Source of the DNA: Bryoerythrophyllum caledonicum
Lineage: Eukaryota > Streptophyta > Bryopsida > Pottiales > Pottiaceae
NCBI GenBank assembly: GCA_963971425.1
Contig: OZ020525.1
Coordinates: 8,725,560 to 8,789,559, forward strand
DNA: 64,000 nucleotides
Direction: 5' to 3'
Shown: positions 21,337 to 51,658 of the stretch, piece after piece
Numbering within the stretch: the first letter of the stretch is position 1
Layout of the letters: each line of letters begins with the position of its first letter
Notes under the pieces: generated by a model
What the model was told of the DNA's origin: nothing
Databases searched by the model: none
Seen by the model: the letters and a program-made list of their open reading frames with translations, nothing else
Translations under genes and position numbers: made by a program

Positions 21337-22035
21337 TTGATCCCAGACAACATGACTCCACCGGTAACGTTGAAGCTCTCCAAGATTGATCCTAACAAGT
21401 TGGAGGGGACGGAGCAAGGAGGAGAGTTGGAGGAAGACCTCACCCGGATGGGTTGCATGGGATTATACGAGAAACCTTGGGTCTTCCAAAAGGGATATGC
21501 GGCTTCAGAGTTGCAACCTCCCGAGACATCCCGTGGAGTCTATCGGCTAACCCTCCAACATGGACGGGAGAAGTTTGGCGTAATGTGTACTCCTTTCAAG
21601 AAGAGAAGGGATAAATGCCTGGGGTCAACCAGGAGTTGCTGGATAAGCACTTATCAAACTCCTACGACGTATCGGAGTGCTACTGGAGTGATCAATTCAC
21701 GAATAACCGATTGAGGAGGGTGGTTGAGTTTCTAAATCCAATCTCCCACCCCAATCGACGTGAAAGAATCATAGCACGGCTGGCCACGACCTACATACAT
21801 GGATTCTTTGATGATTCCTTCCCGGACTGGGGATTTTTGTTAGAAGAAGCGTTTTTGCCACAACTTTGGGCAATTCAACAAGGTGGATGTTCCAAGACTT
21901 TCTTGACTCTATACCTCATGTATTTATATGAATATTATGACTATCTAGAATCGGAAGAAAAGAGGACTTTGAGGCAAGGGATGATTTCTCAGGACCATGC
22001 TTCCCGGGCCTTTCCCCAACATACTGAAGTATGGT
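21337..22035 (+). pseudogene. Unit epsilon gene, N-terminal part (MGC-domain family)
   Basis: First part of an unrecognised protein family found five times in this window. Block 1 'RMGCMGLYEKPWVF' is read in one frame; block 2 'WRNVYSFQ', block 3 'FLNPISHP' and block 4 'LYEYYDYLE' in another. So there is at least one frameshift near 21560-21600, plus a TAA just before 21615. The frame is then interrupted at 22035 by unit delta. It resumes in the same frame at 25844 after a repeated ATGGT, which shows the gene was once continuous. Function unknown; a structural Gag-like role is only a guess, as no zinc knuckle or catalytic motif is visible. Confidence 0.7.
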
Positions 22036-25000
22036 TGTCGGAACAGGGTTGATGCAAGTGCATCTCCTTGAGTGTTTTAAGTGCCCAAAACACCCCAAAT
22101 GGTCACTCTTGTATCGTTCTAGGGATTCAGGTGAAGCTAGCTAGGTTAGGACAATCCGGTTATGACTCCTTCCTATATTTCCTCTTATTCTTCTTATTCA
22201 ATCAGGCCCAATCCAATTACCTCACCTTTCCGGTTATCCGGATTGCCTCTCCTCACTTTCCTGTTTCCGATTTGAATCTGGATCCGGGAATATCAAACTA
22301 CACACAACAATAATTAGCTCTAGTTTTTCCTCATGATGTTAGCTATTGGAGGACGCGTCTTGTTTGGAGAGGGACGGTGTACAAAACTCTCCCCTCGTAG
22401 ATTAGAGTGGCAAAAGAGTCCACTATCAATCCTAACATTGTCTACACATAACAATCACACGCACTAGGGTGGTGTCTACTTTCTCACAACTGCAGGGATG
22501 CTACCGGACAGCCAGTCACGCAAGAGGTATTCCGGCCTTTTGATTACTACAACGACGGGAATCCTAGAGAATCCGGATCTGGTTGTGACTAGTTTTGGTT
22601 TTTAACCTTCCCACAGAATTCCAAAGAAACCCGGATCCCTCACTTCTTCCTTTCCACCACAATCTAGGCTTCACAAAGGTTACACAACCATTTGAAATGG
22701 GATACGTCCATGACAAGGACCACTTTGGAGCTTACACGAAAAGGAATAGATAGGTGTCAAGATGTAAGGACACAAACTCAACATTTAAAAATGGGTAGCG
22801 CATCTTATACAATCTTAGGAATAATGTCCCGTAATTAGGTGCTTGCAAACCTTCTTTCTAACACTAAGATAACGAGAACCGAACTCTAGTTGTAGCGGTG
22901 GCCATGCAAGGCGTTCGACCTATACACCAAAATTCAAGCTACTCGGGTCCGTAATCTCCCCAAGCTCTCGCGAATAGGTCAACTAACAAGACTCTTATAG
23001 CCTCGCGATCAGCAACTAAATACTCTCCCTTTGGGAGCAAAACACAAAACCCAGAACCCACGGTCAAAACGGTTCCTGACGGCTTGCCCGCCACTTCCTA
23101 ACTACCCCGACCAGATTCAAAAGTTACGGATCCAATCCACCTTTGATGGAACAAGTTCTAATTCCGGGTAAAATCCTAATTACCGGGCCACCGCTGTGAC
23201 CGTTTAGCCCTACCACTAGACTCCTAACCTCCTACGGCTAGTTTCCTGTGCACAAGGCAGGAGGTCACCCTACTCCTTGTCTTCTTGATCCTGACCTTTA
23301 TCTTCCTCCGAAGAGTCCGAGAGCTTCATCGTTGAAGTTCCAACTTGGAGCAAAACTTGTTTATCCTCTTCGACCTTGTCCTCCGGCTTCTACACCTCGA
23401 TCTGCTGGCTCGCAAGTGTTCTCTCCTCTACTTCCAAGGTGATGGTCTGCGAAGCTGACCGGGTTTGCCGCATATGGGTTACCCTCTCGGAAACGGACAA
23501 GGTCCGTCTCTTGGAAACTCGTTAGTCCAAAGTGTCAACCTCTACCTTGTTTGCCTTCTCTTGCCGAACCCTTGTCTACACCTAAGACAACGGAGGAAGC
23601 TCATCCTTCCGCTTCTTGGGTTCCGGACCAGGAATTCGGAATCCGGCTTCCGGTTCCAAAATCGTAAGTACTTCCGAAAGCGCCTCCATCGGCTTGGAGT
23701 CAGGAGACACCTCCTGCTTATCTTTCCCAACATTCCGAAAGAACCCTACGTGAATCTTCTGGCACTCCTCCAGCACCTTCTCCATCTTGGAGTGGTACTA
23801 CACCAACACCCCGACGAGCTTCTACGCCTCCGGACCGTCAAGCTTCCGGGCCTTGGTGAATCTGGCGTCAAACAACCTCGCCTTCAACACCACATCACCT
23901 GGTTGCTGCACGAATTCGATCACACGGGTGAGAGCAAGTGCAAAATTGTTTGCCTTACCCATCGCCGCAACCAACTCCACATCCTTCTGGCCCATAGTCG
24001 TCTTCATCTTCTGGTTCATGTTCACTAGGGAGATGAACCGAGCCTCCAATTCCTACACATTCCGAGATTGCAGATTTCGCTCCAAATGTCCGCAAAATTC
24101 ATGTGCTCCCACGTCACCCACAATCCGGCACGCCTCGGCTAGGATGACTTCGATCCGTTCGTAAGTCTTTTTAGCCTTCTCGTATCCTTCCGCGATCATG
24201 TCGAAAGGATCCTCCTCATCTTTCTCCTAGCAAACCTTCTTCCGACGGATTGGAGGAGTTGTGTTGCTCCTCTCGGTCTGCTTCCTCTTCTTCCTCGGGC
24301 TGGCTGACATCGACTAGATGTCGTCATCGAGGGTTGTCTACATAGACGGACAGGGACCCAAATGCAGCGGACGAACGGACAGTCAGACAGTTGGACAGGA
24401 CGGACAACACCCTTATCGAATAGATGCTTAGAATATTCTAGAGAGTATTCTCCAAATCTATATGATTTGTTCCAAATATTTTGGAATATTTTCTACCGGA
24501 CGGACATCAGCCTCTATCGGACAGACAGCCGGACGGACACCACCGGACGTACGGACGCCGGAACAACCATGTCGTCATCCGAGGAATCCGAGTCCGAATT
24601 CGGTTCCTGTTCGGGTTCCGCATCCGGATCCACATCCTCCCGCCCGTGTTTTGCTAGCACCTTGGCCGTCTCGTAGGCGGTCTTCTCGTTGTCGCGCAGC
24701 ACGTCCTCGTGCTCGTACATGTGATACATGAATGGGGAGATTGGGGTAGGTCGCACCTTCCCGAATCCGGTTAAGAATTTATTTACCAATTCTCCCACGA
24801 TGTCTCCCCACGCTACCTTCCTCTTGCCGGTGTACGCTCCCCTGATCGTGTTGGCCAATGTTGTGGTGGTCTTCGAAGGCCAATCCGGATATATGATCGG
24901 GAGTAAATACTCCATCACCCTCTAAACCCTCGGATCCTTGCAATCCGCCACTGTCAGGCCGTTCTTTGGATCTGCCTTCCCGCGTGAAGTTCCCATCAAT

Positions 25001-25843
25001 GAAAGATTCTCGGCGTAAGTACATACCTTCTCCCCACGTCTGAAATCCGTATACCTTGCTCCACATCGTTGAAGTCCACTTCTCAGGCCTTCCCCGGATG
25101 GTGCCATCGAATTTGTTGGAGACTCCGTCTAACAGCTCCCGGACTATCGCGTTGTCTCTGAAACCCCATGGCTGCTCCCGGAATCCAAAACAACCCATCT
25201 TCTTTAGATCCGCATCCAGCGCCTTCCGGTCGCTCTCGGATTCGAGAATCACCGGAACCACATTCCAAAGGTTCACGATCGATTCAGACGCTGCCCAGCT
25301 GTTGGTTGCCTTCTTCAACGTCATCGCAGCAAACCCTCGAGTGGATTCAGAGCCGGATTCTTCCCAAGAAATCTGCGGAAGAATCCGCACTCAAACCCTA
25401 ACCCGCAAAGATAGCAATACTGACTTACAACGCTCACACATACAATCCTCAACTACCCACACTCGCTCGCTTGCCGCTAACCAACCCCAAACTTACTAAG
25501 AAGGATGAGAGAAAGAACCCTGGGATTAATTATTTATTCCCAGTCTGGTAATCATTACCCGAATCCGAACCCGCCGCCGGTTATGACTGTTAAATCCGAT
25601 TACGGTTCTGACCGTTAGATCCTGGTCCTTGTAATAACCTATCGGGATTGGAATCTGGTCACTGATACCCGGATTCTTTCTTATTGTTTTTAGGGTTTCT
25701 AGTTTTAGGCAAGGAGGACTTACGATAGTTTTTAGTAAAACTCTCTATTTATAATGGGGGTGTTCATAATTTCCGAAAAATCACCACCCATTTGCCCTTT
25801 ACATATACTAAGACATTAATTCCTTAAAACCTAGGTTCCGACA
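22036..25843 (-). mobile_element. Unit delta: single-gene mobile unit with TG...CA ends
   Basis: The unit begins TGTCGGAACAGGG and ends CCTAGGTTCCGACA, with ATGGT duplicated at 22031-22035 and 25844-25848. The ends form a 9-bp inverted repeat (TGTCGGAAC/GTTCCGACA). Read on the minus strand it has a TATAAATAG box near 25750, one decayed gene (25322 to about 23250) and about 1.2 kb of non-coding 3' sequence. I compared the two ends for a direct repeat and found none, and no inner TG/CA boundary. Without LTRs it is either a gene-bearing solo LTR or a distinct non-autonomous element. Confidence 0.85.
23250..25322 (-). pseudogene. Unit delta gene (MGC-domain family), frameshifted
   Basis: Read from the minus strand. 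The ATG near 25322 (MTLKKATNSW) leads to block 1 'KMGCFGFREQPWGF' and block 2 'WSKVYGFQTWGEG'. A frameshift near 24985 is followed by GKADPKNG in another frame. TAG at 24922-24924 precedes block 3 'YLLPIIYPDWPSKT' and block 4 'MYHMYEHEDVL'. Then comes an acidic Asp/Glu/Ser stretch, a helical segment ('LKARLFDARFTKARKL') and a Lys/Arg-rich tail. Shares domain order with the alpha, beta, gamma and epsilon genes. The TAG falls at the same alignment column as the one in alpha. Product and function unknown. Confidence 0.68.
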
Positions 25844-26470
25844 ATGGTTGGCCGTACCGGTAAACCATCAAGAGGCGTCATCATCCCGGTCACTTTTGAA
25901 TGATGGTAGGTCATCCCGGTCTCACCGGGAAAACCCACCACCATCACCTCGGCCATCCAAGAGTCTTACACTGGTGGAGAACATAGCTAAATTCTCCCAG
26001 GTTGTAACCCGGGATGTCCAGCAGATGGAGATGGAACTTCTGGAGGCAAGGAGTTATTAGAGGGCTCTCTAAAAGGTGTTTGGAGTAGAAAACACCAGAG
26101 ACATTTTAACTACAGCCTAGGAGGTCCAAAAACAGTCACCTAAAGTGAAGAAGGATCTCCAAACATTCCAAAATAAACATTTTGACCCAAAGGTCAAGGC
26201 ACAGGAGACTAAGGTGGCACTAACCAAGCTACTTGCTGGACAGACTAGTGCCACCATATCAATGCAAGACCGGAGCCCAACCCAGAAGAAGAGAAGGTTT
26301 ATCTATATCAGTTCTCTTTCTTCAAAAGATCATGATCCACCTCTTCAATGTCCAATGAGTAGAGTAGATTCTCCATCTTCGAAGGAGTCGAGTGTGAAAG
26401 TCTATAAGAGACAACGAGGTCTCCCGGTAAATCCTCCCGGGAAAGAACCGGTTGATCTTTCCTTCTCATG
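25844..26470 (+). pseudogene. Unit epsilon gene, C-terminal part
   Basis: Continues in frame from 22035 across the delta insertion (codons read ...EVW then LAVPVNHQEASSS). A Ser/Arg-rich linker is followed by a helical stretch ('LVENIAKFSQVVTRDVQQ'). After a stop at 26058-26060 and a frame change, a segment with 'KKDLQTFQNKHFDPKVKAQ' and a basic KKRR tail follows. It corresponds to the coiled-coil and basic end of the related genes. Decayed. Confidence 0.65.
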
Positions 26471-30530: not shown

Positions 30531-30539
30531 GCCCCCGTA

Positions 30540-31600: not shown

Positions 31601-31605
31601 CCCCG

Positions 31606-33622
31606 TGTGAACCAAATAAAGCCCCCCTAATGGAAAGTCTATTTTGAACACAAAGTCCTATTTTAAGGATTCAGTCCTTATACTACCAGCACTCAAGCAC
31701 ATACATGCATGCATCACATTAGGGTTAAGTGTTTTCCACCATGTGGTTAAGTGTGACTTGCTTCAACATGGGTGAATTAAGGATGATTTCTGCCCTTGCC
31801 TTATGGCCTGACTTCAACAGCTCATATCTTTTGACTTACGACTCCGAATTCAAATATTTTTTTCCTTTAAAATGATGAACAAGTTGTTATTAACTTGATT
31901 AGACCACTTAGAACCAAGTCAGGACCGGTAACACGACTTCCACAGGCAGCCAACAGCAGACACGCCTTCCCTGAATTTCCGAACTTTGCTCAGCCTTAAC
32001 TCCTTGATGGTAACTCCGATTTACACATTTTTTCCTCCTAAACTAACTGAATTCGTGTGCTTTAAACAATGGAACTCTCTGAATGATCGACCGACCTTGG
32101 AAACCTCACATGCATGCGGACAACAGTACTTCAAACCACCCACATACATTCACGTTTGCTCATGCACATCGACTCACGACCTCATACACCACACATACAC
32201 ATGCACGAATTGGTTGCTCAGGGACCGAATGTCATGCAAGACTAAGGTTCACATCTTAGGTTTAAGAAACCCTAATCTTATCCAAATTTTGGCAACGCTT
32301 CTGCACGGAAGTTAAGACTGAAATTTTTTTGTCCTCCGCTCATGCATGCAACGATTACAACGTAATTCCAACACCAACAAGTCAAGAGATCAAGAGGGTT
32401 GGAAGAAGGAGGAGTTCCCTGATCAAGAGCCGAGTCTCTTCACGCTCTCGTTCACGGCTTCCAGCTCTAGCTCACGGCGGTCTGCACGTTCTTGTTCGGG
32501 ATCTTCACCCTTTGGCTCACGGCTTCCCGTTCTTGCTCATGGCTTTTCCACGCTCTTGCTCGCGATCTTCACCCTCTGGCTCGCGGCTTCCAGCTCTAGC
32601 TCACGGTGGTCTCCACACTCTTGCTCGCGATCTTCATCCTTTGGCTTACGGCTTCCAGCTCTAGCTCATGACGTTCTCCACGCTCTTGCTCGCGATCTTC
32701 ACCCTCTGGTATGCCCACTCACGAGTCTCCTCCAGCCGGGGCTTCCAGCTCTCTTCCTCTGCACACTCCGTACCCGTGTCCACACCCCACCAAGATTCAC
32801 CACCCTCCTCCTACGGTCGGGGCTTCCGACTCCTTGTCTCCCTCTCTTCCTTCAATCTGGTCCGCCTACTACAACTGAGCTGCAGCTGGCTCCTCATTCG
32901 CGTTCCCGCGTTCGTTCCCTCGTTCCCTTGTTCGCACGACCTCAGCCGCCACCTTCCACGGCTAGCTCCAAAAAAAATCCTTAGCCTCCAAGCTAATTTC
33001 TCCCCCTAACCCCTTTTTGCACAACTTGGAGGTGCTCCAATTTTCTATGAATAATCCTCTTTTAATTTTAATCTTTAGCCACAACGCGAGCACATGGGCC
33101 TCAAATAATTGAGGCCACTTTACCTAAATCCATGGTTCTAACTCTACCTAATTCTACCTAAATCTCATGTCACCATTTGCATGTGACTGCTCTAATTAAA
33201 ATAGTGATTGGTTGAAGGCTTTTGTTTTAAGCCTTTAATTTTTTTTGGGTTAATTTTTCCCTTTGGCTTTATGCCTAATTGTTCTTTCCTCCATCATATT
33301 TTTTTTCTCTTTTTCTCCTCCTTCAACCCCCTTAATTGTGTTAAAAACACCGGGGTTAATTGTGGCCCTTTTAATTGTTGAGAAGGTTTTTTTTCTTTCT
33401 TATAACCTTTTTAATTTTAATTTTTTTTGGTTAACCACATAAAAATCATTAATTGCCATAATATTGCTTCTAACTTGAGAAATGGAAAATTCAGAGGCTA
33501 TTTGGCCACTTTAGCCAAAAATCATGAGTTAATTTAACCTCTTAACCCAATTCACTGCTTCTTATTGTTAAATTGTGAGTTTTTTAACCCATTGTCACCG
33601 TGAGCCGGTTCTGGGGCTCTCA
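31606..33622 (+). mobile_element. Solo-LTR-like unit 1 (2,017 bp)
   Basis: Starts TGTGAACCAAATAAAGCCCC and ends 'GAGCCGGTTCTGGGGCTCTCA', with CCCCG duplicated at 31601-31605 and 33623-33627. It splits the integrase reading of the gypsy element, which continues on both sides. It is the inverted relative of 35595-37743 along its whole length. No coding gene: frames at 32.3-33.0 kb come from a GC-rich tandem repeat. TG...CA with a 5-bp duplication and no inner region is what LTR-LTR recombination leaves. Confidence 0.85.
32430..32710 (+). repeat. Tandem repeat inside solo-LTR unit 1
   Basis: Three to four imperfect copies of a roughly 75-bp unit with 'GGCTTCCAGCTCTAGCTCA' and 'CTCTTGCTCGCGATCTTCA' cores. 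The related unit 2 carries a diverged version at about 36640-36830 ('GTGCCGTGAAGATCAGCC'). Confidence 0.8.
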
Positions 33623-33627
33623 CCCCG

Positions 33628-35589
33628 CTTCACAGTCTAAACTACACGCTCCGCCAAACCGTCCGCTTCCAAATGATCCTTAGAAGTGGTATAGTGATGA
33701 ATCAAATTCTTGATACACAAAGCTTCAAAAGCCCCAGGAACTCACGCCCTTGGACTGCCGAAACCTTAGTTGGGGCTCCAAAACGATGCAACACCCAATC
33801 AAGGAATGCTATGGCTGTCAACTCTAAAGAGTTTTACAGAAGAGCCACGAGCTCAATCCACCTGCTGAAATACTCCACCATCACAAAGACACACTTGGCT
33901 TCGAATGAAGTCACGATAAGTGGACCAGCAAAGTCCAAAGACCACCGGTATCCTAGCCCCATAATGGGTAAAAGCAACAACTGCAGTGACAAGGTGTTGA
34001 AGCTGGATCTAACCCGACCACATACCTCACATCCAAAAACACACGTGGCGACCTGTTGATACATGCCGGTCCATTAATATTGGTTGTGCAACATTGAATG
34101 AGTCCATAGTACATCAAAATGTCCTAGGTCTTTGTGTACTTGCCCTATCAACGAAGACCTTTAATCGGGCCTCGGAACTATGCGCTTATTCCCACCCGGC
34201 CACACCCAAATAAAAGTCCGTTTTCCCAATGGAACCTTGCTATTTGGTGTCCAACTCCATCACGTTCTATAGGGGAAAGAGCTGGGAGAAGTGTATGATA
34301 TTGTAGCATGTGCAAAATTGGACCGTCTTCCCACACATTGCTAACAATTTGGGCCCTATCCGGTTCCTCATCCGTTACCAAATCATGCAACGTCAATGTA
34401 GAGCCAAACATCAACGTGACGTAAGCCGCCGCATGCCACCTCGGGACTAGCTCCCTTTATCACTTCATATGCCACGTGGCACCAATCAGATCCTCCTCCA
34501 AAGGACTTGGTTTGCGAGATAGACCATCCCCATCCAAGTTTGTGATGCCGACTCAATGTACAACCTCAAAGTCATACTCCCAAAGCATCAAAGCCCACCT
34601 CGAAAGCTTGCCAGTAAGCTTGTCCGACTCTATGAGCCACTTCAAAGGCTGATGGTCGGTCACCAACGTACAATGTTGCCCATACAAATAAGGCCTAAAA
34701 TGGGCTGTGGCCCAAACTGAGGCCAAAGCCTCTCCCTCATAGGACAAATAGTTGGACTCTGAATTGCTGTTGCTCCTAGAAGCAAATGCCACAATTTTCC
34801 CTCGTCCCTCATCATCCTTCTGAATAAAGAGTGCCCTCAATCCCACAACACTCCAGTCTGTATGCAACTAAAAGGATCGTGTAGCATTAGATGACCCAAA
34901 TATGGCAACTGATCGTAGAAGAACTTGCACTTGCCATGGTGCAAACGCAATCCCCACTGCGGTAAGCTCTCAAACACCACATGAGGATGCCTCACATGCT
35001 CTTGTGGGCTGCTACTAAAAATGATAACATCATCAATTTAGCATCGAAAAAACAATACACCGGTTAACACCCAGCCCATCTTCCTCTAAAACTCAGCGGA
35101 TGCGTTCTTAAAGCCAAAAGGGTGAAATTTCCAATGGTAGAGTTGATCTCTCCCATCCTGGTCAACTCCCCAAAATGGAGTCTTTACCTAGTCATCCACC
35201 ATGAATGGTTACTGGTGGTAATCAGACCGCAAATCTAGAGTACTAAATACTCTAGCGTGGCCCACCGCATCAAACAACTCCTCCGGCATAGGTATGGGAT
35301 GTAGGTTTGACTTGGTCTTATGATTGACCGGCCTTTATCTCCACACATCCGCTTCTCCGTCCAGTTGCCAAAGATATCATTCTTCAATGGCACAACTGTT
35401 GCACAAGCGTACTCGCGGTTACAAAGCTCAATCAAGCTGGCGGCCAACAAATCCTGACAACAAGTTTGAACCCCAACTTTCTCTAAAAGATTGAGCTTGT
35501 ACGGTTGTAGGAAGCTTGGGTGGTTGTCCTCCAACAAAATGTGAATTGGCTTGCCTCTATACTCCTCCAAATTTATGGAGACGACAGGC
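33628..35589 (-). pseudogene. gypsy pol middle part: reverse transcriptase, RNase H, integrase start
   Basis: Continues the pol frame between the two solo-LTR units. In order on the minus strand: the pre-RT segment (PVVSINLEEYRG, 'LLEKVG'); RT start (GNWTEKRMCGD); the catalytic box, with a stop in place of Tyr (codon at 35038-35040) then IDDVIIFS; RNase H ('LHTDWSVVGLRA', 'ESNYLSYEGEALA', 'YLYGQHCTLVTDHQPLKWL'); the integrase zinc-binding part (CEVCGRVR); and the integrase core ('WSLDFAGPLIVTS', 'VMVEYFSRWIELVAL'). Multiple stops and frameshifts, including TGA directly after FEVVH at 34553, where an Arg codon is likely. Non-functional, clear family assignment. Confidence 0.88.
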
Positions 35590-35594
35590 AAAGT

Positions 35595-37743: not shown

Positions 37744-37748
37744 CAAAG

Positions 37749-39542: not shown

Positions 39543-39547
39543 AATAC

Positions 39548-40690
39548 TGTTGCAAGTCGAAAAGTAAGTATTCCTCTGGATAACACTTAGTTGTAGCTAA
39601 ATGTATCCAAAGTATTCGGCGTCCGCTCTAAATTCGTTCCGACAAAGACTTATTGTTTCTTTCCTAATTGATAGGTAAAAACTAACTAACTACCGAACAC
39701 TACTCCACTAGTAAGCTTCCCTATTCATCCCTTTGATCTACTATCCGGATCCTTCCAGATTCTGGAGTTCTTACAAACAACTTCCGGAACTCGTTTCCGG
39801 ACCGCCGGAGGGTGGTTTGATTTATCTCTATTCATCCTCAGAGAGTCTTCCGGACGGTTCAAACAAGTGACCGGAAGGCCACTGATCATGTTTTGTGTAA
39901 GTGGCCGGATTCTCCACTGTCTTGTGACTTTAAGTGGCTAGGCACCCACTGCCCCGAAACTTTACGTTGCTAGACACCCACTTTCCCTACTCCTATAACC
40001 GGTGAATGATTTTTGCAGCTTAACCCACACTCTCACATCATCCGGATGGCCATCTGGATGCGGTGACACAGAGGTCAATCCGGACTACAACAACATTCCG
40101 GTTGGTACTACAGTGGTTCTACTGAATGAGTGTTGCAGTTTGAAAGTAAACTTCCTTCTAGACATACACACTGGGATTTTTCCCTAACGTAAGGGGAAAT
40201 TCCGGTCTCAACCAAAATTCGGATTCACACGAATATTTCGTGCCCTAGAGACTACCCAGGCCACCCCTGCAGTACGTCCCTTCCTGGCTCCTGGCTACTT
40301 CCGGTCCCTGCAGAATGTCAGGTCTCTACCTAATCTCTCCTCCAACTCTTCCGGGCGATCTCCTAATGCAAGCCTCAACCGGTCGTTCTAAGTACAACCC
40401 TTGCAACACTCAATCCATAAGAACATAAATCACAATATCCCAACCACAATGGATCTGCTTCCTCATAGAAAGGAAAACTTAATCACCACAAACTCAAGAA
40501 GAGAAAACGTGATAGATAGAAAATACTCTTCATGAGAGAAAACAAGATGATCAGTTGACTAAAACTCATCTATTAAGTACTAACTAATCTCTTGAATCTA
40601 AAGTCTACCTTATCTGCTCAAAATCCGGGAAATCTTATCCTAAAAGTAAAAAGATCTTATCACTAAAAATCGAGATTTCAAATCTCATAT
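39548..40690 (-). repeat. Gamma 3' region, shared with alpha in inverted orientation
   Basis: The reverse complement of 39548-40690 aligns with 46660-47836. Shared landmarks are 'GGAGATCGCC.GG.AGAGTT', 'CGGAAGTAGCCA', 'GTCTAG...GGAAT', 'GTTGTAGTCCGGATT', 'GGCCATCCGGATG', 'GGCAGTGGGTG.CTAGC' and 'GAGACTCTCTGAGGA'. Non-coding and rich in TCCGGA words. It marks the conserved 3' end of this subfamily. Confidence 0.8.
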
Positions 40691-40863
40691 CTAGGGCTTT
40701 TTTTTTGGACCTGTGTCCCTCCTGCTGGCTGCACTGCAGAGGCCAATTTTTGGAGGGACGAAGCCAGAGTAGGTAGATTTCTGACAATCTGGCGAAATTT
40801 CGCCAAAAAAAAAGCCCTGCTCATATCCAAAATTTATGGATCTGAGATCCGATTTTTCCGCTT

Positions 40864-41075
40864 CTAGGACTGACATCCATGCTTGGAAAGGACTAGAACT
40901 TCCGCTAGGATTGACATCCATGTCAGCCACTGCTCGGCCGCGAGGTGGAAGAGTCGCCCGCGGTTGAATTGGAGAAGAAGACTCCGATGGAATTCGGAAG
41001 GGAAGAGGGGATTCCTACAAAAGTCCTTCCAACATGACGTTGTGCCACTTCTGGAGGGTCTTTGTGCTTGGAAAG
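40864..41075 (-). pseudogene. Unit gamma gene, C-terminal end
   Basis: Across the beta insertion the gamma frame continues (the reading ...SWSKVP joins to FPSTKTLQKWHNVMLEGLL, then TAG). It shows that beta landed in the 3' coding part of gamma. Nothing recognisable beyond family membership. Confidence 0.6.
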
Positions 41076-41639
41076 GGAACTGTCGTACCACGAGTTTCAA
41101 AAAAAATTTAATTAGGTAGTTGGGAATGATAAAATTAGATAAAATGGTTAAGTTTGAGGTTTGATCTAAACTAGAATTAGCACGTAGGTAGAATTAACGT
41201 AAAAAGAATATAGGAACTAAGTGCCCCCCTTAAATGGAATAAGAAAGGGCCTCAAATCCGAGCCTCAAATCCGAACCTCAAACCCGAGTCCAAGGCCAAG
41301 CCAAGGGCTCGACCCGAGACCCAGCCTCCCCAATCTCAAAAGGCAGCTCGAAAAAAGGAGCTTGGCGAGAAGAGAAAGGGCAGCTCGGAAAAGGGCAATT
41401 CGGAAAAATAAGCTTGGCGAGAAGAGGAGGCAGCTCGGAAAAGGGAGCTCGGCGGGATAAGGGGAGCTCGGAGGAAGGAGTCTTGGAAGAAGCCCCAAAG
41501 CAACCAGCCGGCCTTAACAATGGCTACAAAAGCAGTACAAACCCCGAGCAAAAGCAAGGGTGCGAACTGCGAAGCAAGGGTGCGAGTTGCGAAGCAAAGG
41601 TGCGAGCTGGGAGTAGGGCAAGGGCAGGCAGTCCGAGCT

Positions 41640-42310
41640 AGGAGCTCGAGGGAACCCTATCCGAGCTGATCCAAGCTGAGAGCTCCAGAAAGCCATGTCC
41701 AAGCTTATCCGAGCTCAAGGGCAGGCAGTCCGAGTTGAGAGCTTGAGGGAGTCGTGTCCAAGCTGATTCGAGCTCAAGGGAACCCTGTCCGAGCTGATCC
41801 GAGTTGGGAGCTCGAGGGAATCCTATCCGAGCTGATGCGAGCTCGAGGAAACCTTGTCTGAGCTGATCCGAGTTGGAGGAAACTAGGTAAGAGCGAGTGA
41901 ACCTCGTGAGAGCCCGAGGGAATCTCGTGAGAATTAAGGGGACACTATCCGAGCTGGTCTGAGTTGGGAGTCTCCAGGGAGCCCTGTCCGAGCTAGTCCG
42001 AGCCAGGTGAGAGCTGAGGGAACCTCGTTTGAGAAGTGAGCGAATCTTGTGAGAGTTGAGCGAATCTCGTGAGAGCTGAGGGAGCCTGGTTTGAGCTTGG
42101 AGAACCTCGTGAGAGTTGAGCGAACCTCGTGAGAGTTGAGGGAGCTAGGTTTGAACTGGGGAAACCTTGTGAGAGTTGAAGGAGCCTAGTACGAGTTGAG
42201 GGAGCCTAGTACGAGTTGAAGGAGCCTAGTACGAGTTGAGGGAGCTAGTACGAGTTGAGGGAGCCTAGTGCGAGTTGAGGGAGCCTAGTGCTAGTTGAGA
42301 GAGCCTCGTG
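41640..42310 (+). repeat. Degenerate minisatellite in the beta leader
   Basis: Many imperfect tandem units. At 41640-41870 the theme is 'TCCGAGCTGATCCGAGTTGG' plus GAGCTCGAGGGAA; from 42000 it tightens to about 20 bp ('GAGTTGAGGGAGCCTAGTAC'). It sits just upstream of the beta start codon, so it is probably leader or promoter sequence. Open frames here are by-products of the repeat. Confidence 0.8.
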
Positions 42311-42413
42311 TGGGCTGAAAGTCCGGGCCAGGCACTCACGGAGCTTACTCATTCGAGCAAGGAGCAAACCAGTGGGTAAGGAAGAGCCTCCTGACCAACT
42401 CAAAGCAAGAAAA

Positions 42414-43925
42414 ATGGCTACTTCCCACCCAACACGTTCCATGGCCAAAGACATCTCCCCGGCTATCCCCAAGGACCCTCATGAGCTAACCGAACTCCAA
42501 GAAGACCTCCTACGTATGGGTTGCCTATCCCTTCTAGATTTCTGTTGGAGTTTTAGTGTAGAGTCCACTGTACAGGAGCTACGGCAGAACCCTATGCCGA
42601 TACCGGAAGGTGATAGCCTTCGCGATTGCCCGGACCGTTGGACCATGGGAAAGTGGCAGGAGGTGTACGGATTCCCACGAGAGGGAGCAGGTTGGACAAG
42701 TTTGAAGAAGGAAGAATATGCCAAGGGACGTTTCGGCACCAAGGACGCCAAGAATGAGTATGCGGTAAGTGATTGCCTAGACCTCCGGGCCAAACGGGTC
42801 TTCTCCTTCTTCATACCGATCCTGCATCCGGAGAAACCTACCCGAGTCACAATCACCCTTGCTAATATTGTGTATGGCTCTTATCTTAGAACGAGTGGTG
42901 AATTGGGCGGTCATTGTGAAGGATGTGGTTCTTCGTTTGACCAAGAGTGTCAACAACACTAAATGTTCCCCCCTTGCTCCGTTATTGGTCCACCTCTATC
43001 ATCATTTCAAAGAGACTACCGCAGAGGAAGCCATGGCCTTTGGAACTCACCTCATGATGAAGAAGTTTGATGGGACGGAGTCGGAATCTGAGCCGAGATC
43101 GGAAGGAGGGAGCAGCTCATCGCAGTCAGAGGGGGAAGCACCACCACCTCCCAAGCATCAACGACAAGGACCAAGAGGAGCACATTTCACCCGGACCCGA
43201 GTGGCCGCCCATGCAGCTGCTATAGGATTAGCTCAACTCGGCGGAAAGACTTACCATGCCTCCGAGTTGGTAGAGGCTCTTCATGGATATGTGGGCGACG
43301 TAGATAAGACCTTGGGACAAATAGGCAGCTTGCTTGGCAACCCCTCTTACCAAGGACTGGTCACTACGGGCAAGGAGAAGATTGGAGGAGTTGGTGACCT
43401 CCGCATTATGGAACAGAAGATCAACCGACTCACTCTGGATGTGACCAAGATGAAGAGCCGGGCATTGGAGGCAGAGAAGAGTTGTAAGGAAGCTCTTCTC
43501 CAAGCCAATGCCTCGACATCGACATTGCAACAGGCGGAGGAGGCATTGCACGTCCCGGCGGATGCAGTGATGAAAGCCAAGATGTTTGATGCTAAATTGG
43601 AGAGGGATGGCCACATTTCTAGAAAGAAGGTGATTGCCTTCATGGTGGAGCAGACCATGAAGATCGAAGAGGCGTATGCTAACATGAGGTTATTGGTAAG
43701 CAACCTCACCTATATCCTACCAAAGTTTGTGGAGGATTCGGATGGTCCGAACAAGGATGGCGAATCTTATTCAGAAGCGGATTTAGAAGTGGATTCGAGA
43801 GTTATCACTTGTCCTTCCCCTTCAGATTTCACCACACAGGCGCGGAGTGGAAGAAAGGATAGCTTGAGCGCCACGATGGAGCCTCCGTGCACGACTCCCC
43901 TTCGTCAATTCTTCCTTGGAGACCC
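42414..43925 (+). pseudogene. Unit beta gene, N-terminal and coiled-coil part (MGC-domain family)
   Basis: The start ATG at 42414 (MATSHPTRSMAKD) fits the other copies. Block 1 is 'RMGCLSLLDFCWSF', block 2 'WQEVYGFPREGAG', block 3 'FFIPILHPEKPTRV'. Near 42875 the frame shifts by one base and block 4 'LVHLYHHFKETT' is read in the next frame, which stays open to the alpha insertion. There follow an acidic/Ser linker (PRSEGGSSSSQSEGEAPPPP), a long helical stretch with coiled-coil look ('IMEQKINRLTLDVTKMKSRA') and the conserved 'KAKMFDAKLERDGHISRKKV'. The frame is cut after LRQFFLGDP by alpha. Product unrecognised; possibly a Gag-like structural protein, by position only. Confidence 0.7.
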
Positions 43926-44447
43926 TGTGGGAAACCGTTCCCACATGGTGCCAGAAGTTAAGCTAAGAATCCGACAAAAACAAAAAATTTCTTAAGAAGT
44001 AACAATAGTTCGTGCTAGAATAAAATCAATAGTCAGTTTGTAAGAATAAAGACGGATGGACCCGGCAGCAAACCCTAATTGAGCCTAAAGCTGCAAAATG
44101 TAGAGTCACAGTAGTTAACGGAATTCCAGGATAGTCTGTCACCCGGAATTGTCACCCGAAGCTGTCACCATCAACTGTCATCATGAGCCGTACTTACGGC
44201 CAGACTACAAAAGGCTGGGCCGCTAGGGTGCAAGGAGAGACTCTTTCTTTTTTAATCTTTTTTGCGTGAGGTGCTTCCGCTCTAGCACTCGTTCTCTCTC
44301 TCTCTCTCCCGATTCTCCTAACTGCTGGCCGTTAGGGTTTGATTAGTTAGACGGTTAGAACGGATGTGCGTCCGTTAGGGAGGGTTTGTGTGAGGTCGGT
44401 GCGTACAGGGACAACATTGAGGAAAAGTGAGGTATTAGGCACACTCG

Positions 44448-46274
44448 ATGAAGACGGTTCCCATGGCCAAGAAGAAAAGAACTTATAAAGATGGACGCGG
44501 ACGGCGAGACGAAGAACCGGCCGTTGCGCTTCTGCCCTTGATGCGGGTTATCCCGGAAATCCCAGCGGACCCGGACGAGTACAACCTGTTGAAGTTGAGC
44601 TCGAAGTCCATGGGATGCGAAGGCTTTCTCGAAGTTGCCTGGGGCATCTGGGAGGAGCCAAACGTCCAGGAGTTGATCGGCACTCCGGACCCAAAGTACG
44701 AAAGGTTGCTGCAAGCACATCCGGAATGCATGGGAGTTCTGGAATGGACCCAGGCGTACGATTTCCGGGCCGGTCGCACCAGGGTGGTGGAACCGCGAGA
44801 CGAGTTCCTGATGGAGGAATTCGGTGGGAAAGCCGATCCGAAGGAAGGCTACAACCTGCAAGACTTACTCCACCAAGATGCCTAGATGGTGCTAGGGTTT
44901 TTAAACCCTATTTTCCATCCGGAAAAGCCAAAGCGGGTGGTGGCAAAGTGGGCCTGCACGTTTCTCGGAGCACTCCGGGGGAAGATCGCCGTAGACTGGG
45001 GGATGCTCATGAGCGAGATGATCAACCGTCTTGTGGCCAACCTCCAGAAGGTGAAGAAATCGGCAATACCACTGGCCTCATATGTGGTGCACTTGTACTG
45101 TCACCACCTGCAACTCACTCCGGCGGAGGTGAAACGGTACAACAAAGTACTCAGCCTCCAGAAGTACGGAGGTGAAGAGTTAGAGGAAGAATCCGGAGGG
45201 GCAGCGGAGCCCGTGCCGGAAGCAACAATCGCGGATACTTTGGAAGGAGATCAGAGGGCTCAGAAGAGGCCTCGAGGGAAGAAGTCAGTGCCTGAGAGTC
45301 CAGACTTCCGCAGCTCCTCGACATCGTCCCGAGAAGACGAGTCTGGACCTACAGCGGAAGCCAGCCAGAAGAGGAGTAAGATTGACCCGGAGGACTCCAA
45401 GGGTCAGCTGAAGGAGATGGACCATCTCCTGTGTGAGGACGGCTGGAGAGTGGGCATCCTCAAGGAGATCAACTTCATCGTCACCACCAGCATAAAGCAG
45501 GTCTTCCGGAGTCTGGGAGTTGGCCGGCTGGGGGATGCCATCAACAGAGTAGAGGATCTCCGGAGCAGGGAGACCGACACGAAGGCATTGCACCTTCAAA
45601 TCTCCATAATGTACAAGGCCAATACGGAGAAGGAGAAGAAGGTAAAGCACTATCTTCAGGAGACAGCGCTGGCGGTGGTGGCCCGGAAACAGGCAGAGGC
45701 CAAGGCGAATGCATCAGCGGCTGCCTTGACAAAGGTTTGGAAGGCCCTGGAGTTTACGGTAGACGTGGTCAACCGGAGCCAACTCTTCACCGAGTTGGTG
45801 GAGAAGGAGAAGAAGGTAACCAGGACCAACATCATCCGATTTCTCCTAGATCAAGCGAAGAAGATGGGTCGGACGACTCGGACCTGGGAACAGATGAAAC
45901 TACTAGTCGACAACATCACCCAGATGGTTCCGGAAGACCAGTCAGCCTCAGTACCGGAGGACGTTACGACCCTGGGACGGACCATGGCCCCTCCGAAACC
46001 ACCACAGCCTAAGACAACTCCAGCTTCGAGTACCTCAGCGAATCCGGAGTCTCTCGACACTATGTCACCTCGGACACCAGCGGAGGGCATCGTATCTTCC
46101 AATCCTAGTATGGGTGAGATACTGAAGAAGCTGCCGGATCTGCTGTCGCCACCAAACATGCGCCTGCCAGATCCTCCGGTAGAAGACGACCCCCAGGTAC
46201 CACCGAAGTCCGTATCTCAGAGATTGGCGACCGGGCCAAGGAGTTCCTCCAGAAGCTACAGAGACTTGGTCTAG
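44448..46274 (+). pseudogene. Unit alpha gene (MGC-domain family), one in-frame TAG
   Basis: A frame of 608 codons broken only by TAG at 44883-44885. ATG at 44448 (or 44463, MAKKKRTYKD) leads to block 1 'SMGCEGFLEVAWGI', block 2 'WTQAYDFRAG' and GKADPKEGY; then the TAG; block 3 'FLNPIFHPEKPKRV'; and block 4 'VVHLYCHHLQLT'. Next are an acidic Glu/Gly/Ser segment, a basic KRPRGKK patch, a helical middle ('DAINRVEDLRSRETDTKALH', 'RSQLFTELVEKEKKVTRTNI') and a Pro/Thr/Ser-rich tail. Near 46200 the +1 frame contains 'KLQRLGLGDPVSFRAG', resembling the beta tail, so a second frame change near the end is likely. The CDS would be 145 aa, or about 607 aa with readthrough. No database family recognised. 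Confidence 0.72.
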
Positions 46275-46629
46275 GAGACCCGGTCAGCTTCCGAGCCGGA
46301 ACAACCAGCGCCTCCAGTTTCGGAAGGTTCACCGGAACAGCCACGCCCACCACCGGATTCCAGAACTCGAGTGGCTAGGGTTTCTCGAGCGGTCAGACCG
46401 TCAACCCGGTAGACCAACCTTTCGCCGGCAACTGTGAAGAAGGCGAAGAGCAAGCAGCGGACTTCGGTGGAGATCTCCTCCTCACGCTGAAGTGGGAGAA
46501 ATCGGGGACCGGGTGCTCTGACTTAGGTTAGTTTAGGTGTAGCATTTCCGGGTTTAGATTCCGGATCACGAGCGACTAACGATGGGGCTCCAAGTGACCC
46601 GGCTGCTGACGGAGTCGACTGCGGAAATT

Positions 46630-47836
46630 TGTAGTTAGAATGGGAATTCCGGAGCCGGAACTGTCCCGAGATTATAAGATCTGAGATCCGATCTGGGACT
46701 TTTCCGGATTTCTCGGATCTTTTAGATAAGATCTAGCGGATTTCCAATAGATGCAGCTAGAAGGGAGGCTAGGTTTAGAAGGGATTCACTTAGTATTTAG
46801 TAGTGGGGTTTTGGAAAAAAACCTTTTATCTTGTTCTTCTCACTCTATATACACTCCAAACCTTCTTGCCAAATTTGCTTCCTTGTAACCTTGATGTGGA
46901 GTGTAGATGTTGTGTGAAACAAATCCATTCTTGTAGGTATGATTGTGTGAGGATTCTTCCGGAAGGGGAGTGGTAGCTTTATGCGCTAGAGGGAAAACGG
47001 TCAGAATCCGTGTCGGGAGATCGCCTGGGAGAGTTGGAGGGCTATTGCAGAGGTGTGATTGGTAGACTCCAGGGTCCGGAAGTAGCCAAGAGGGGAAGAG
47101 ACGAACTACATAGGTGTTCCTGGTAATCTCTAGGGAACGAAAGTATCCGTGTTAACCTGGATTCCGGTCAAGGCCGGAGTTCTCCCCCAAGATAGGAAAA
47201 AGCCTGATGCATGGGTCTAGACGGAATATCCCTGGTGCGTGGTGACAACTGCTCTAGAGAATTACAGTTGTTCTTACCAGAATGTCGTTGTAGTCCGGAT
47301 TTGACTCTGTGTGACTGTGTCCGGAAGGCCATCCGGATGTCGTGAGAGCTTAAATCTAGGAGCAGCAATCCAATTACCGGTTAGCAGAGTAGAGAGAGTG
47401 GTGTTCGGTCACTATAAAGTTCCGGGCAGTGGGTGTCTAGCTACTTAAATCACAAGGCAGTGGGAAATCCAGCCACTTAGACAAAATAGGATCAGTGGAC
47501 TTCGGCCACTCGTTTAAAAACTCCAGGAGACTCTCTGAGGAGGACAAGAGACTCTCTGAGGAGGAACAGAGACAAATCAAACTACCCTCCGGACTCCCGG
47601 AAACTCTTTCCGGAAGCCGTTGTACAAAATTCAGACTCCGGAAGGATCCGGATTCGTAGTACTTAAATAAAGAGCATAGCTAACCTTTGAACGATTGTTG
47701 TGGTAGTTTAGTAATTGGGAGTATTTGGAAAAGAACATTAGGTCTCTATGGGAACGAAACCGGAGCGGTTACTTTGGAAGTATTTAGTGACGATTAGATG
47801 CATTCCGGAGGAATACTGTCTCTACAAACTGCAACA
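46630..47836 (+). repeat. Alpha 3' region, shared with gamma
   Basis: Non-coding, TCCGGA-rich; matches the reverse complement of 39548-40690. Tandem 'AGACTCTCTGAGGAGGA' copies lie at 47530-47570. If alpha is an LTR this would contain polyadenylation and R/U5 signals, which I could not confirm. Confidence 0.75.
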
Positions 47837-48262
47837 GACCCCGTTCGCGCAACACTTACTTTTACTCCTTTGCAGGGAATGTCTCCTTTTGTGAAGACCA
47901 CAAGTGAGAGTTCGGCTTACTTGCACCTTCTTGTACGGACTAAGGTCAAGTTGGGACACACCTCTGTACAAGAGGCCTTCATTGGGACTCCGAGCCTCGT
48001 ATTGGCCGTTCCGGCCCGGTCCGAGCCCCACCAAATCACGACTTCCGTGCTACTCACTCCAGGTGGTCCAGATGCCTCCTTGACTTCGATGGGACCCTAC
48101 CTCGGTCATCCATGGCCGGATCAACACCCTCTTCATCTGCAGATCTGTTATCACCTCTTGTGACACTCGCGAAGGCTACGGCAAACCCGACTTCGAGCAA
48201 AAGCGCGAAGAAGCAAAAGAAGAGGGAAGAGAAGAGAAGACTTAAGGAGTTGACTCGGAAGT
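47837..48262 (+). pseudogene. Unit beta gene, C-terminal part
   Basis: Resumes the beta frame after the repeated GACCC (reading GDPVRATLTFTPLQG, then 'MSPFVKTTSESS'). A frame change near 48150 leads to a strongly basic tail (SSKSAKKQKKREEKRRLKEL) ending at TAG 48260-48262. The tail could serve as a nuclear localisation or nucleic-acid-binding segment (inference). Confidence 0.65.
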
Positions 48263-49516
48263 AGGGTCAGAATCTTAGTTTGTAAGTCACTGTTCATTTG
48301 TGGACTAGGCCCCACGTTGAACTTGGGTTTAATTTGGTTTTGCCTTGGAATTCATGTAGATGCCTTTGACTTGGCACGTAGCGTTGGTGGACGGTGGCTG
48401 CGCCATCAAGGGTAGTTAATGCCGCCTGGTTTAGTAGAAGATATCGTTTGCTTTTAGCATTTGTGTGAGTTCTTGACAGTATAAGTGAAAAGCCTCTTGG
48501 CACCTCTTTTCACTGCTTGATGTGTGTATTTACTTTCAGTTTAATTCAAAACCTACGTTCTCAGAAAACCTTCGATGGTTGGAGAGCTCCGATTCCATAC
48601 ATGACTGTGAGTGCCATTTCAAGTAGTCCACTCCTCAAGTCTGTACTAACCGTCGACTCATTGTTTCCTTGTTCCATCAAATAAAGGTAGTCTGTGTGGA
48701 TGGGAATAACAGGTGAGATTGTAAATGTTTAGGAAAGGATAAGGGGGGAGTGACGGACGTGAAAGGGTCATAGCAAGTCTTGAGTGACCTTCCGGCGTCA
48801 GATTGGCGTTGGTTATGAAGGCTAGTGTCGTTCCCGGAAGCATCCTACCTCCAGCCGCATCGGATGTGGAGGGAGACTTAGAGAGTTTTGGATAGTGGGC
48901 GGGTAGGCCCCCTCCTCACTTATATTACGACTCTCTTAGTTTCGGTAACACGGGCCTAACTCCCCTTCGAGGGGATCTCAGTGACACCATAAACATTCAA
49001 GTGAGTGAGTAGAAGTAGAAGGAGAGAATGGGAGGAAGGATAGTCGTTACTTGTGTCAACACTAAAATCTCTGTAAGTCCACGGACCATTGTCGGTCGTG
49101 GTATAATCTTTTTTGAGTACTCATGTACTCCGGATGTCTATAGTGTGCATAGGTGTAAAGATAATCCTACCTCTAAAATGGGACTAGGTAGAAGTAGGTC
49201 CCCCCCCGAAGGTCCCTACCTTCCGAGTGAGGTAGGTCCCTACCCGAAGGTCCCTACCTTTTGAGCGAAGTAGGCTCCTACCCGAGGAAAAGCACTTGTA
49301 CGGAGAAGGGGGTGGTGGATGTAGTTACCGCTCAGGCGTTGTAATCTAAACCTTTCTTTTCTTTCTTTTGATGTATCTATTTTGGTATGTTTAACATTGT
49401 ATATATATCTAGGCTTGTTGTTACTCGTTGTAGTTCTCGGTGATTCTTTGTGGGAACGATTACCTTAGGGTATCTTTGACTTAAGATGTGAATACTTGCC
49501 AACACGTACTACGACA
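48263..49516 (+). other. Beta 3' non-coding region with palindromic short repeats
   Basis: No gene. 49190-49285 holds alternating GGTAGGTCCCTACC and CGAAGGTCCCTACCTT units that can fold into hairpins. 49305-49450 is AT-rich and leads to the terminus at 49516. Confidence 0.5.
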
Positions 49517-49521
49517 GGCAC

Positions 49522-51157
49522 CTTGCTCCAGCTCATAGGAGAAGCTAAATCCGTAGTCCCAATGAGATCATTGAATCCTTTGGCCGGTGTTTGTGGAGTT
49601 TTGGCTGTAGGTCTGGATGGAGTTCCGGATGGCCCGGCCCTTGCCGACGTCGCAAGTTCATCCTCCAGAATTTGGGTCTCAGGTGCCTTTGGAGCTGCGG
49701 GGGTCAGGTTCTTCACCAGCTCCTACATCTTAGTCCAAGTCTCTTCCATCTTCCGGTCGTGGTCTAGGAGCAACCGGATGATCTGCCCTCTGTTGAACTT
49801 CTCGTCCTTTAGGCTTCTCTAGACTCTCAATGTGGAGGAGAGTGTGGTTGACGGTGTCCATCAGAAAGTCGAGGGCGGCGCAAACCTCTATCAAAGCCTG
49901 GGCGGAGGCCCGGACCTTTGCTTCCGCCTCAGCTCTCGCTTGCTCGGCCCCCTCGTGAGCAGCTTCCGCTTGCTTTACTCGCTTCCAAAGCTGTACATTG
50001 GTCTGGGAGCGGATGGTTTGTTGCTGCTCCTGTTGCCGGACCAAGCCTTCCTTGGTCATCAACTCCTTGAGTCGTAGAAGAAGATCCACGGAGTCGTTTG
50101 TCCCCACCTCTTCCATGATGGCCATTATCATGGCCGTTCGCTCCCTCATCTCTCCGTCCTAGATCCTTGCCCGCCAGACCACATGCTGGCAGAGTTTTGA
50201 AATGTCCTCCGGGATGCGGTTGGTCATTGTTGGGGAAAAAGTCGGTCCCGGCTCTACTCCGGTGCACTAGAGTTCAGATGGTGGCGCTTTGGAGGGTGGT
50301 ACCTCGATCTGGGTCTGAGTCTCTCTGTCCTCTAGAGGTTGGCTCGGACGTGCGGATTCCGTAGTCTTCTGGACTAACCTGCTCCGCTTCCGGGATCTCC
50401 TGGTGACGAGCGGGGACAATGTTTGGGACTCTATGTCTTCAGAGTCCTCCTCCTTGTCCTCCGTCTCTCATCTACCATAAGATTGGATGCTAAAGAAGCT
50501 TGTCAAACTCGTCCTATTCCTCCTGACTCAACAGCTTCTTCTTGGCGTATAGATGCGCCACGTAAGAGGAGAGGGGCGTTGCTATCTTCCTCGCCTTTGG
50601 AAGGTTCTTGACCATCCGGTCGACCTGGTCTCCCATCAGAGCCGCCTAGTCTACTGTATGTTTCCTTCTCATTGCCCTGAGGAATAGACTAGCTAGCTTT
50701 GCCACTACCCTCTTCGATTTTTCCGGATGGAAAATAGGGTTTAGGAAAGCGATGACTAACCTCGTGTCCGGATCCTTGAGATCCTAGAAGACGTACTCAT
50801 TCTTCGGGTTGGCTTTCTGCAAGAACTCTCCCTTTAGCAAGTCGTCGTTGCGCTCCGCCACCTTCACTACCCCATACCGAAAGTCGTAGGTGTCCCTCCA
50901 GGTCGCAGCAGTCCTCTCTTCCGAATGAGCCCAGATGCGTCCGTCGTACTGGTTCGGCTGCTTTCCCACAAGCTCCGTCACCATCGCTTCACTTTGAAAG
51001 GCCCACGGCGCTTCTAGAAGGTCGTTACAGCCCATGAGCTCCAAGTAACTCTCCAAAATCCTAAGCTCCTCCTCCGAAGTTGGCAGTTCGGGCGCCACCT
51101 TCTGGAGCAGTTGGATTTTCGGCGGCTGGAGTCTTGCCCTTCTTTCCTACCATCCGG
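49522..51157 (-). pseudogene. Unit gamma gene, main part (MGC-domain family)
   Basis: On the minus strand ATG at about 51157 opens MVGKKGKTPAAENPTAPE. A one-base shift near 51100 then gives 'ELPTSEEELRILESYLELMG' with block 1 LMGCNDLLEAPWAF, block 2 'WRDTYDFRYGVVK' and KANPKNEYVF. TAG follows at 50784-50786, where alpha has Gln (CAG-to-TAG is possible). Block 3 is 'FLNPIFHPEKSKRVVAK' and block 4 'VAHLYAKK'. A helical coiled-coil region follows (49730-50149: 'RLKELMTKEGLVRQQEQQQT', 'DFLMDTVNHTLLHIESLEK') and a Pro/Thr-rich tail, running into the beta insertion. Upstream, TATAAAA near 51355 could be its promoter. Product unknown. Confidence 0.68.
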
Positions 51158-51658
51158 CCCCACCTCTTGGTATGCTTGCGCCTCACAATCTTTCCAGAAA
51201 CACCTACGCGCACTCTCCTCACAAAGACCCTCGTTTCTAAAAACTACTTTTGCGCTTGAGAACCTGAAGACAAAAGGCCTAGAGAAGCAAAAGAGAGCAG
51301 AGAGTGTAGAAACGACAAACGAGAAATGACGGTGCCCTCCTCTGGTAGACGAGTTTTATATCCGACACGATGTACGGATGCCGTTGAGGTCATGATGACG
51401 GTTCCGGATCTGGATATTGTCCGGATTGTTACGACAAATTCCGGACTCCACCGTACTTCGGCTTCCGGACTTTTGGAAAAGTATAGAAACTGTCATGTTT
51501 TAAGGATGTCGATTTTGCAATGAGACCTTTTTTTACCTAGGACCTATTTATGCTATTAAAACAAAGCTTATTGCCTAATTTTTTTTAATTTTCTTCCATT
51601 TCTTTCCTGATTCAGTGCCAGTGTCTGGAATTGAGTGGGAACACCTTCCCACAAATAC

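Follow-up and report, generated by a model that had tools for sequence, protein, structure and literature searches.

Single-gene mobile units of Bryoerythrophyllum caledonicum are very probably solo long terminal repeats of Ty3/gypsy elements with an accessory gene of their own

How can a DNA unit bear the ends and the target duplication of a retroviral-type insertion, hold a single gene, and yet show neither a pair of long terminal repeats (LTRs) nor a pol gene? The question is raised by a 64,000-nucleotide stretch of the plant Bryoerythrophyllum caledonicum (assembly GCA_963971425.1, contig OZ020525.1, positions 8,725,560 to 8,789,559 of the forward strand; hereafter the window, in whose numbering coordinates are given), where four such units, alpha, beta, gamma and delta, and a fifth gene fragment, epsilon, were noticed. 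The initial annotation had left two readings: either (a) each unit is a solo LTR of about 4 kb that itself encodes a protein, or (b) the units are a non-autonomous single-gene class moved in trans. We find that they are very probably solo LTRs (3.7-4.5 kb) of Ty3/gypsy elements, in which each LTR comprises a complete accessory gene. The units, named according to this reading, are as follows (TSD, target site duplication).

43926..47836, + strand: alpha, solo LTR of 3911 bp, TGTGGGAA...CTGCAACA, TSD GACCC/GACCC, sits in gamma
41081..49516, + strand: gamma, solo LTR of ~4520 bp minus alpha, TGTCGTACCACG...CGTACTACGACA, TSD GGAAC/GGCAC (4/5), sits in the beta gene
39548..51653, - strand (gene strand): beta, solo LTR of ~3665 bp minus gamma, TSD AATAC/AATAC
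22036..25843, - strand (gene strand): delta, solo LTR of 3808 bp, TGTCGGAAC...GTTCCGACA, TSD ATGGT/ATGGT
21358..21857, + strand: epsilon, the fifth gene copy, N-terminal part alone, placed by homology

What had been described of the four units was borne out, namely TG...CA ends, 5-bp duplications (exact in alpha, beta and delta, at four of five positions in gamma), a gene of one shared family and no internal repeat; the nesting of alpha within gamma within beta was likewise correct. A search for direct repeats joining the two ends of a unit (exact seed of 14, minimum 40 nt, ungapped) found none, and each unit appears as a single LTR within its TSD, with no internal region. The gene family was detected by tblastn with homologues in all four units and in the fifth fragment. 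The latter had been drawn from 21337 to 26470, as the host of delta: the homology at 21358-21857 stands, but the right limit is doubtful, as the sole match to the right of the delta insert has an E value of 9.4.

Copies elsewhere in the genome indicate that these boundaries are real. The genome (437 Mb, 894 contigs) was searched at the DNA level with alpha as a query, and the best 39 of 3536 candidates were scored. At least 48 rows matched, alpha itself included, with 67-100% identity, and 23 of the 48 begin at most 13 bases from the start of alpha and finish at most 2 bases from its end. For alpha and 20 fetched copies, 12 of the 21 pairs of flanking 5-mers agree at four or all five positions, against 6 of the 420 cross-pairings of flanks used as a control. 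Among six beta-like loci (L035-L040), both ends are readable in two, L035 and L040, and both have an exact TSD (AGACC, ATCTT). It is this recurrence of flanking duplications, at copies of alpha as well as at beta-like loci, that makes us accept the unit boundaries. A second LTR of the gamma family was also seen, which spans L030 from 9745 and L034 up to 3443, both as reverse complements; it terminates in CGTACTACGACA, the flank beyond is without a primer-binding site (PBS) motif, and its gene has few breaks.

In three alpha copies (L015, L016 and L022) the lack of a TSD is accounted for by their position as LTRs that adjoin a PBS or pol. Immediately downstream of L015 and L016 stand the PBS-like sequences CAATTTTTGGCGCCG and CGATTTTGGCGCCG, respectively. 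The motif TGGCGCCG, which we take to match a tRNA end, is found directly 3′ of both, and also of the 5′ LTR at locus C3 described below. An open frame downstream of L016 matches the Pfam families Retrotrans_gag (4.5e-9) and Ty3_capsid (1.2e-7), and Retrotrans_gag is again matched ~2 kb downstream of L015 (1.9e-5). On the other side of the internal region, the sequence upstream of L022 contains RNase H (1.4e-28), an integrase stretch, and then the polypurine tract (PPT) GACAAAGGGGTTA before TGTGGG.

Locus C3 brings pol and two LTRs together. Its pol is one 1206-aa frame with reverse transcriptase (1.7e-25), RNase H (5.6e-38) and integrase (3.8e-13) in that order. The pol stop falls within the PPT TGAAAAAGGGGTAA, which abuts the TGTGGG start of a 3855-bp LTR, and this LTR has an intact 742-codon frame whose first ATG is at LTR position 482. 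The second LTR begins 9714 bp away and ends before CGATTTTGGCGCCGCTG. Where the ends of the two were compared, 125 of the 127 first bases and 108 of the 109 last bases are identical, and the proteins encoded by the two LTR frames are identical. Gene pairs on the same strand, 9695-9714 bp apart, were found at three loci (C3, C14 and C1:53.83 Mb). In all three a pol piece is present at constant offsets. The LTR pair round gag-pol for which a genome-wide search had been advised was found in relatives, as pairs 9.7 kb apart with pol between. Protease was seen as a weak match alone (0.0066), in a locus other than C3. Taken together, these loci have what characterises Ty3/gypsy elements (Metaviridae): TG...CA ends with a 5-bp TSD (C3 excepted), a PBS-like motif after the 5′ LTR, a PPT before the 3′ LTR, and the gag-pol order, gag and the 1206-aa pol coming from different copies. 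The absence of an LTR pair and of pol therefore holds for the window units and not for their family, whose relatives have both. Since the window units have TSDs and no interior, and their relatives are true LTRs, we conclude that they are solo LTRs.

With the C3 protein as a query, the best 60 of 8469 candidates, 87-100% identical and hereafter called young copies, were listed. A pol of the same family lies on the same strand within 12 kb of 10 of these 60, and for several of the 10 the partner LTR is not among the matches listed. Most young copies would thus seem to be solo, although the hit lists (for P0004 the best 66 of 6929 candidates, for the pol piece the best 40 of 135) are too weak for a solo/paired ratio and are no census.

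The same loci decide against reading (b), in which the units would be single-gene elements without LTR pairs that receive integrase in trans. Each unit by itself does show TG/CA ends, a TSD and one gene, and only 3 pairs 9.7 kb apart were found among the best 60 of 8469 candidates. However, the identical sequence type is found as paired LTRs round pol, and beside a PBS and gag. To our knowledge, there is no route by which a unit without PBS or PPT is copied by reverse transcription, and this also counts against (b). Units of this kind serve as LTRs in gag-pol elements, which makes a class moved in trans unnecessary; we consider it exceedingly improbable and rejected it. Reading (a) is supported by the relatives that have PBS and gag, pol and PPT, or a paired LTR. 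A DNA transposon with TG/CA ends was set aside once PBS, PPT and pol turned up.

Several observations do weigh against the solo LTR reading. No pol adjoins any window unit, so that their status as LTRs depends on relatives. Nine of the 21 alpha copies are without a TSD of 4/5 or 5/5, and beyond the three accounted for above, its absence is unexplained in L017, L019, L020, L023, L024 (3/5) and L026, the ends of L020 and L026 being extrapolated. The integrase match upstream of L022 (4.9e-5) is under the Pfam cut-off (24.0 vs 32.6 bits). At C3, the 5′ LTR sequence was read at its two ends alone, the evidence for gag comes from other copies, and the outer flanks (GTCTT/GCTCC) are no duplication, a mismatch that recombination between two elements would explain.

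What, then, is the gene that these LTRs share? In the window its copies, with one upstream motif, are distributed as follows.

44463..46349, + strand: alpha LTR gene, ATG at 44463, homology in one frame up to 46349, in-frame stops at 44883-44885 and 46272-46274
42372..43890, + strand: gamma LTR gene, frameshifted, interrupted by alpha, tandem repeats at 41601-42342 in front
49510..51189, - strand: beta LTR gene, part 1, disrupted by stops and frameshifts
40856..41086, - strand: beta LTR gene, remainder on the far side of the gamma insert
51354..51360, - strand: beta TATAAAA, LTR position 294, 5′ of the gene, putative promoter motif
24604..25339, - strand: delta LTR gene fragment, N-terminal domain, frameshifted, TATAAATAG (LTR position 91) upstream

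The gene lies entirely within the LTR, in the same sense as gag-pol. It starts at about LTR position 480-540 in alpha (538), beta, delta and C3, and at ~1290 in gamma, where tandem repeats of 20, 31 and 69 bp directly precede it. Plus-strand synthesis begins at the polypurine tract, and reverse transcription duplicates the LTRs. As the PPT is found directly 3′ of pol, all the sequence beyond it belongs to the LTR, the gene included.

Selection on the gene was measured in two families. The alpha set consisted of alpha and 19 loci (L026, whose match is split, was omitted), which gives 190 non-independent pairs. The ratio of nonsynonymous to synonymous divergence (dN/dS) had a pairwise mean of 0.34 (sd 0.06) in the gene frame, all 190 pairs being below 1, compared to 0.90 and 1.08 in the other two frames and 0.70-0.82 when non-coding LTR sequence was treated as codons. 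In the beta-like family, 15 pairs from six loci gave 0.38 in frame, 0.71 and 1.11 in the other frames, and 0.70-0.81 in the non-coding LTR. The LTR gene was under purifying selection. In the alpha alignment, synonymous divergence was 0.41 in the gene and ~0.22 in the non-coding LTR read as codons; because the first value is nearly twice the second, it would seem that either the non-coding LTR is constrained or the gene is more mutable.

These data bear on the idea that the frame is a passive passenger, for instance a captured host gene fragment that the element does not use. All 20 gene copies compared in the alpha family do carry stops or frameshifts, and no function has been assigned to the gene, both of which speak for a passenger. 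Against it stand the purifying selection found in two families, the presence of the gene in each LTR subfamily encountered, and the 17 of the 60 young copies that are stop-free over 742 codons. We regard a passenger as highly improbable. From the dN/dS values and the stop-free copies it follows that the gene was maintained while within the LTR, and that some copies are recent.

The protein has few relatives. Searches of protein databases listed first 7 and then 13 of them among their matches, 14 in all, and 11 of the 14 are 640-740 aa long; these homologues are predictions from metagenome contigs. Its architecture comprises a helical N-terminal domain (residues 8-224) and a coiled coil. Matches in Pfam, NCBIfam and PDB sequences were weak and scattered, and a VIA-align search with the N-terminal domain listed none. 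The family, which had been called unrecognised, stays so after profile searches, no Pfam family being assigned to it.

Could it be a gag, the LTR frame being a duplicated or displaced copy of it, in the manner of TR-GAG elements? The helical domain with its coiled coil, and the single gene per unit, would fit. However, the elements have a separate gag inside (the frame with the Retrotrans_gag and Ty3_capsid matches given above), and hhalign of this gag with the LTR gene returned a probability of 6.2% (E 0.006 for that single comparison, over 31 columns). In addition, no gag family is among the Pfam rows of 15 LTR-gene members, and the C3 LTR protein has no CCHC motif. The initial annotation had foreseen that the gene might prove to be an ordinary internal gag, and this is not what was found. 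To judge from these sequence comparisons, the LTR-gene protein is not the gag of its elements, and a gag origin appears very unlikely. Identity with TR-GAG was rejected, given the separate gag and the units without an LTR pair.

Another proposal is compatible with the solo LTR reading and would refine it. The LTR gene may be remote kin of the plant Transposase_32 family (PF20167), a known type of accessory open reading frame (ORF), the PPT having moved to its 5′ side. A protein of this genome matches PF20167 at 4.1e-7 (30.5 bits, under the 45-bit cut-off), and when aligned to the LTR-gene profile the same protein reaches 8.7 bits along a collinear stretch of ~100 residues, the best listed shuffle having 7.6 (1927 of 3000 listed). 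Among control frames (135 of 218 listed), the only higher scores noticed in those checked came from LTR-gene fragments. These are two weak links, though; hhalign gives 0.8% (E 0.069), and PF20167 itself is listed for none of the 15 LTR-gene members at E up to 10, its gathering cut-off not being reached. We hold such kinship to be a serious candidate, with somewhat less than an even chance. Open frames with sub-threshold similarity to Transposase_32, some above 500 aa, were noticed at 44 places in the genome (for example C2:12428512-12428946); it is possible that they are remote relatives of the LTR gene.

How might a gene in this position be expressed? TATA-like motifs are found upstream of it in several families: TATAAAA in beta (294), TATAAATAG in delta (91) and TACAAAA in C3 (265). 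TACAAAA is also found at a similar upstream site in 11 of 20 alpha copies, and TTAGGGTTT after a CT-rich tract in 14 of 20. From these motifs, the gene is probably read from its own promoter near the 5′ end of the LTR. Speaking against such a promoter, TATA-like motifs also occur 3′ of the gene (TATAAG in gamma and, in 19 of 20 alpha copies, TATAA at about position 3488), and a canonical TATA is absent from the C3 LTR. The 3′ motifs might serve the genomic RNA; the gene could then lie in U3 and be read from that RNA as its last frame, from spliced RNA, or from internal promoters as for sag. Motifs alone did not settle the transcription start site.

Under the solo LTR reading, reverse transcription would copy the gene-bearing LTR to both ends of the element, and LTR-LTR recombination would then remove gag-pol and keep the gene in a solo LTR. 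The gene could thus outlast its parent element. For its product, the chances are about evenly balanced that it acts in trans as a nuclear or assembly accessory factor, a function read from structure alone, which counts against this part of our interpretation. A bolder proposal, which we find doubtful, is that the LTR has become a self-contained transposable protein gene, with its own promoter, a frame intact in scattered solo LTRs and a trans-acting product. If so, the product could help the parent family, e.g. against silencing, and recombination would create a persistent helper gene.

Other features of the window and the genome were noted along the way. A 343-codon open frame at 11607-12638 (+ strand) has DDE_3 and HTH_Tnp_Tc3_2 domains and is a Tc1-type transposase. 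Pieces of a hAT-type transposase (Dimer_Tnp_hAT and a zf-C17orf113 zinc finger, in neighbouring frames) are present at 60829-63273 (- strand). A 6.1-kb palindrome-like structure at 31622-37726, whose inverted arms are 79-95% complementary and which carries GTGTGAACCAAATAAAGCCCCCC at each outer end, is possibly a transposon with long terminal inverted repeats; no target duplication was seen by eye. Rfam gave no match in the window at gathering thresholds. Elsewhere in the assembly, three stop-free matches to rbcL lie on contigs C821, C590 and C894 (L031-L033), the sequences of L031 and L033 being different; they may be nuclear copies, or else stem from the plastids of two plants.

LTRs are usually taken as non-coding, and here a plant lineage has a conserved LTR gene of 640-740 aa under purifying selection. 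Solo LTRs are then gene copies, which annotation pipelines may label as host genes or as unknown single-gene repeats. Protein-based phylogenies of LTRs become possible, and the family offers a test case for the passage of accessory genes from the internal region into the LTR, or back, by a shift of the polypurine tract. What is new is that the LTRs of these Ty3/gypsy elements house an accessory gene that has been under selection, LTR-borne genes being known in kind from sag; we found no report of a conserved gene within a plant LTR in a search that was made mostly at the level of titles and abstracts, left subscription journals largely outside and is not proof of absence.

Known systems resemble this arrangement in part. 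TR-GAG elements (PMC8704663) share a single protein gene and LTR-type integration, but there two LTRs surround a gag, whereas here the gene is inside the LTR and is probably not a gag, so that the units fall outside that class. Rice Retrosat2, RIRE3 and RIRE8 also have LTRs of ~3 kb and more (above 3.2 kb in Retrosat2), an extra ORF0 of unknown function and many solo LTRs (429 for Retrosat2), but their ORF0 is described as a separate ORF upstream of gag-pol, outside the LTR (PMC3485330). Additional ORFs of plant elements sit in the internal region, mostly between pol and the 3′ LTR (PMC7264820). Those of Athila, Bagy2, Grande, RIRE2 and Retand are, like the LTR gene, conserved and adjoin pol, and the Grande protein is nuclear with its own promoter; in our elements the PPT precedes the ORF instead of following it, which makes the ORF a part of both LTRs. 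In arrangement, the closest analogue is sag of mouse mammary tumour virus (MMTV) and other betaretroviruses (PMC4667437), also a protein gene in an LTR, where coding sequence is out of the ordinary, and one that survives in solo LTRs: most relatives of sag found there were solo LTRs (490 of the 527 contigs on the shortlist). While a part of sag, if a minor one, falls outside U3, the gene described here belongs to an unrecognised family of 640-740 aa, in plant Ty3/gypsy elements, with host and element both unrelated. The likeness is one of arrangement alone, for which we claim no homology, and the B. caledonicum LTR gene would be an independent parallel to MMTV sag.

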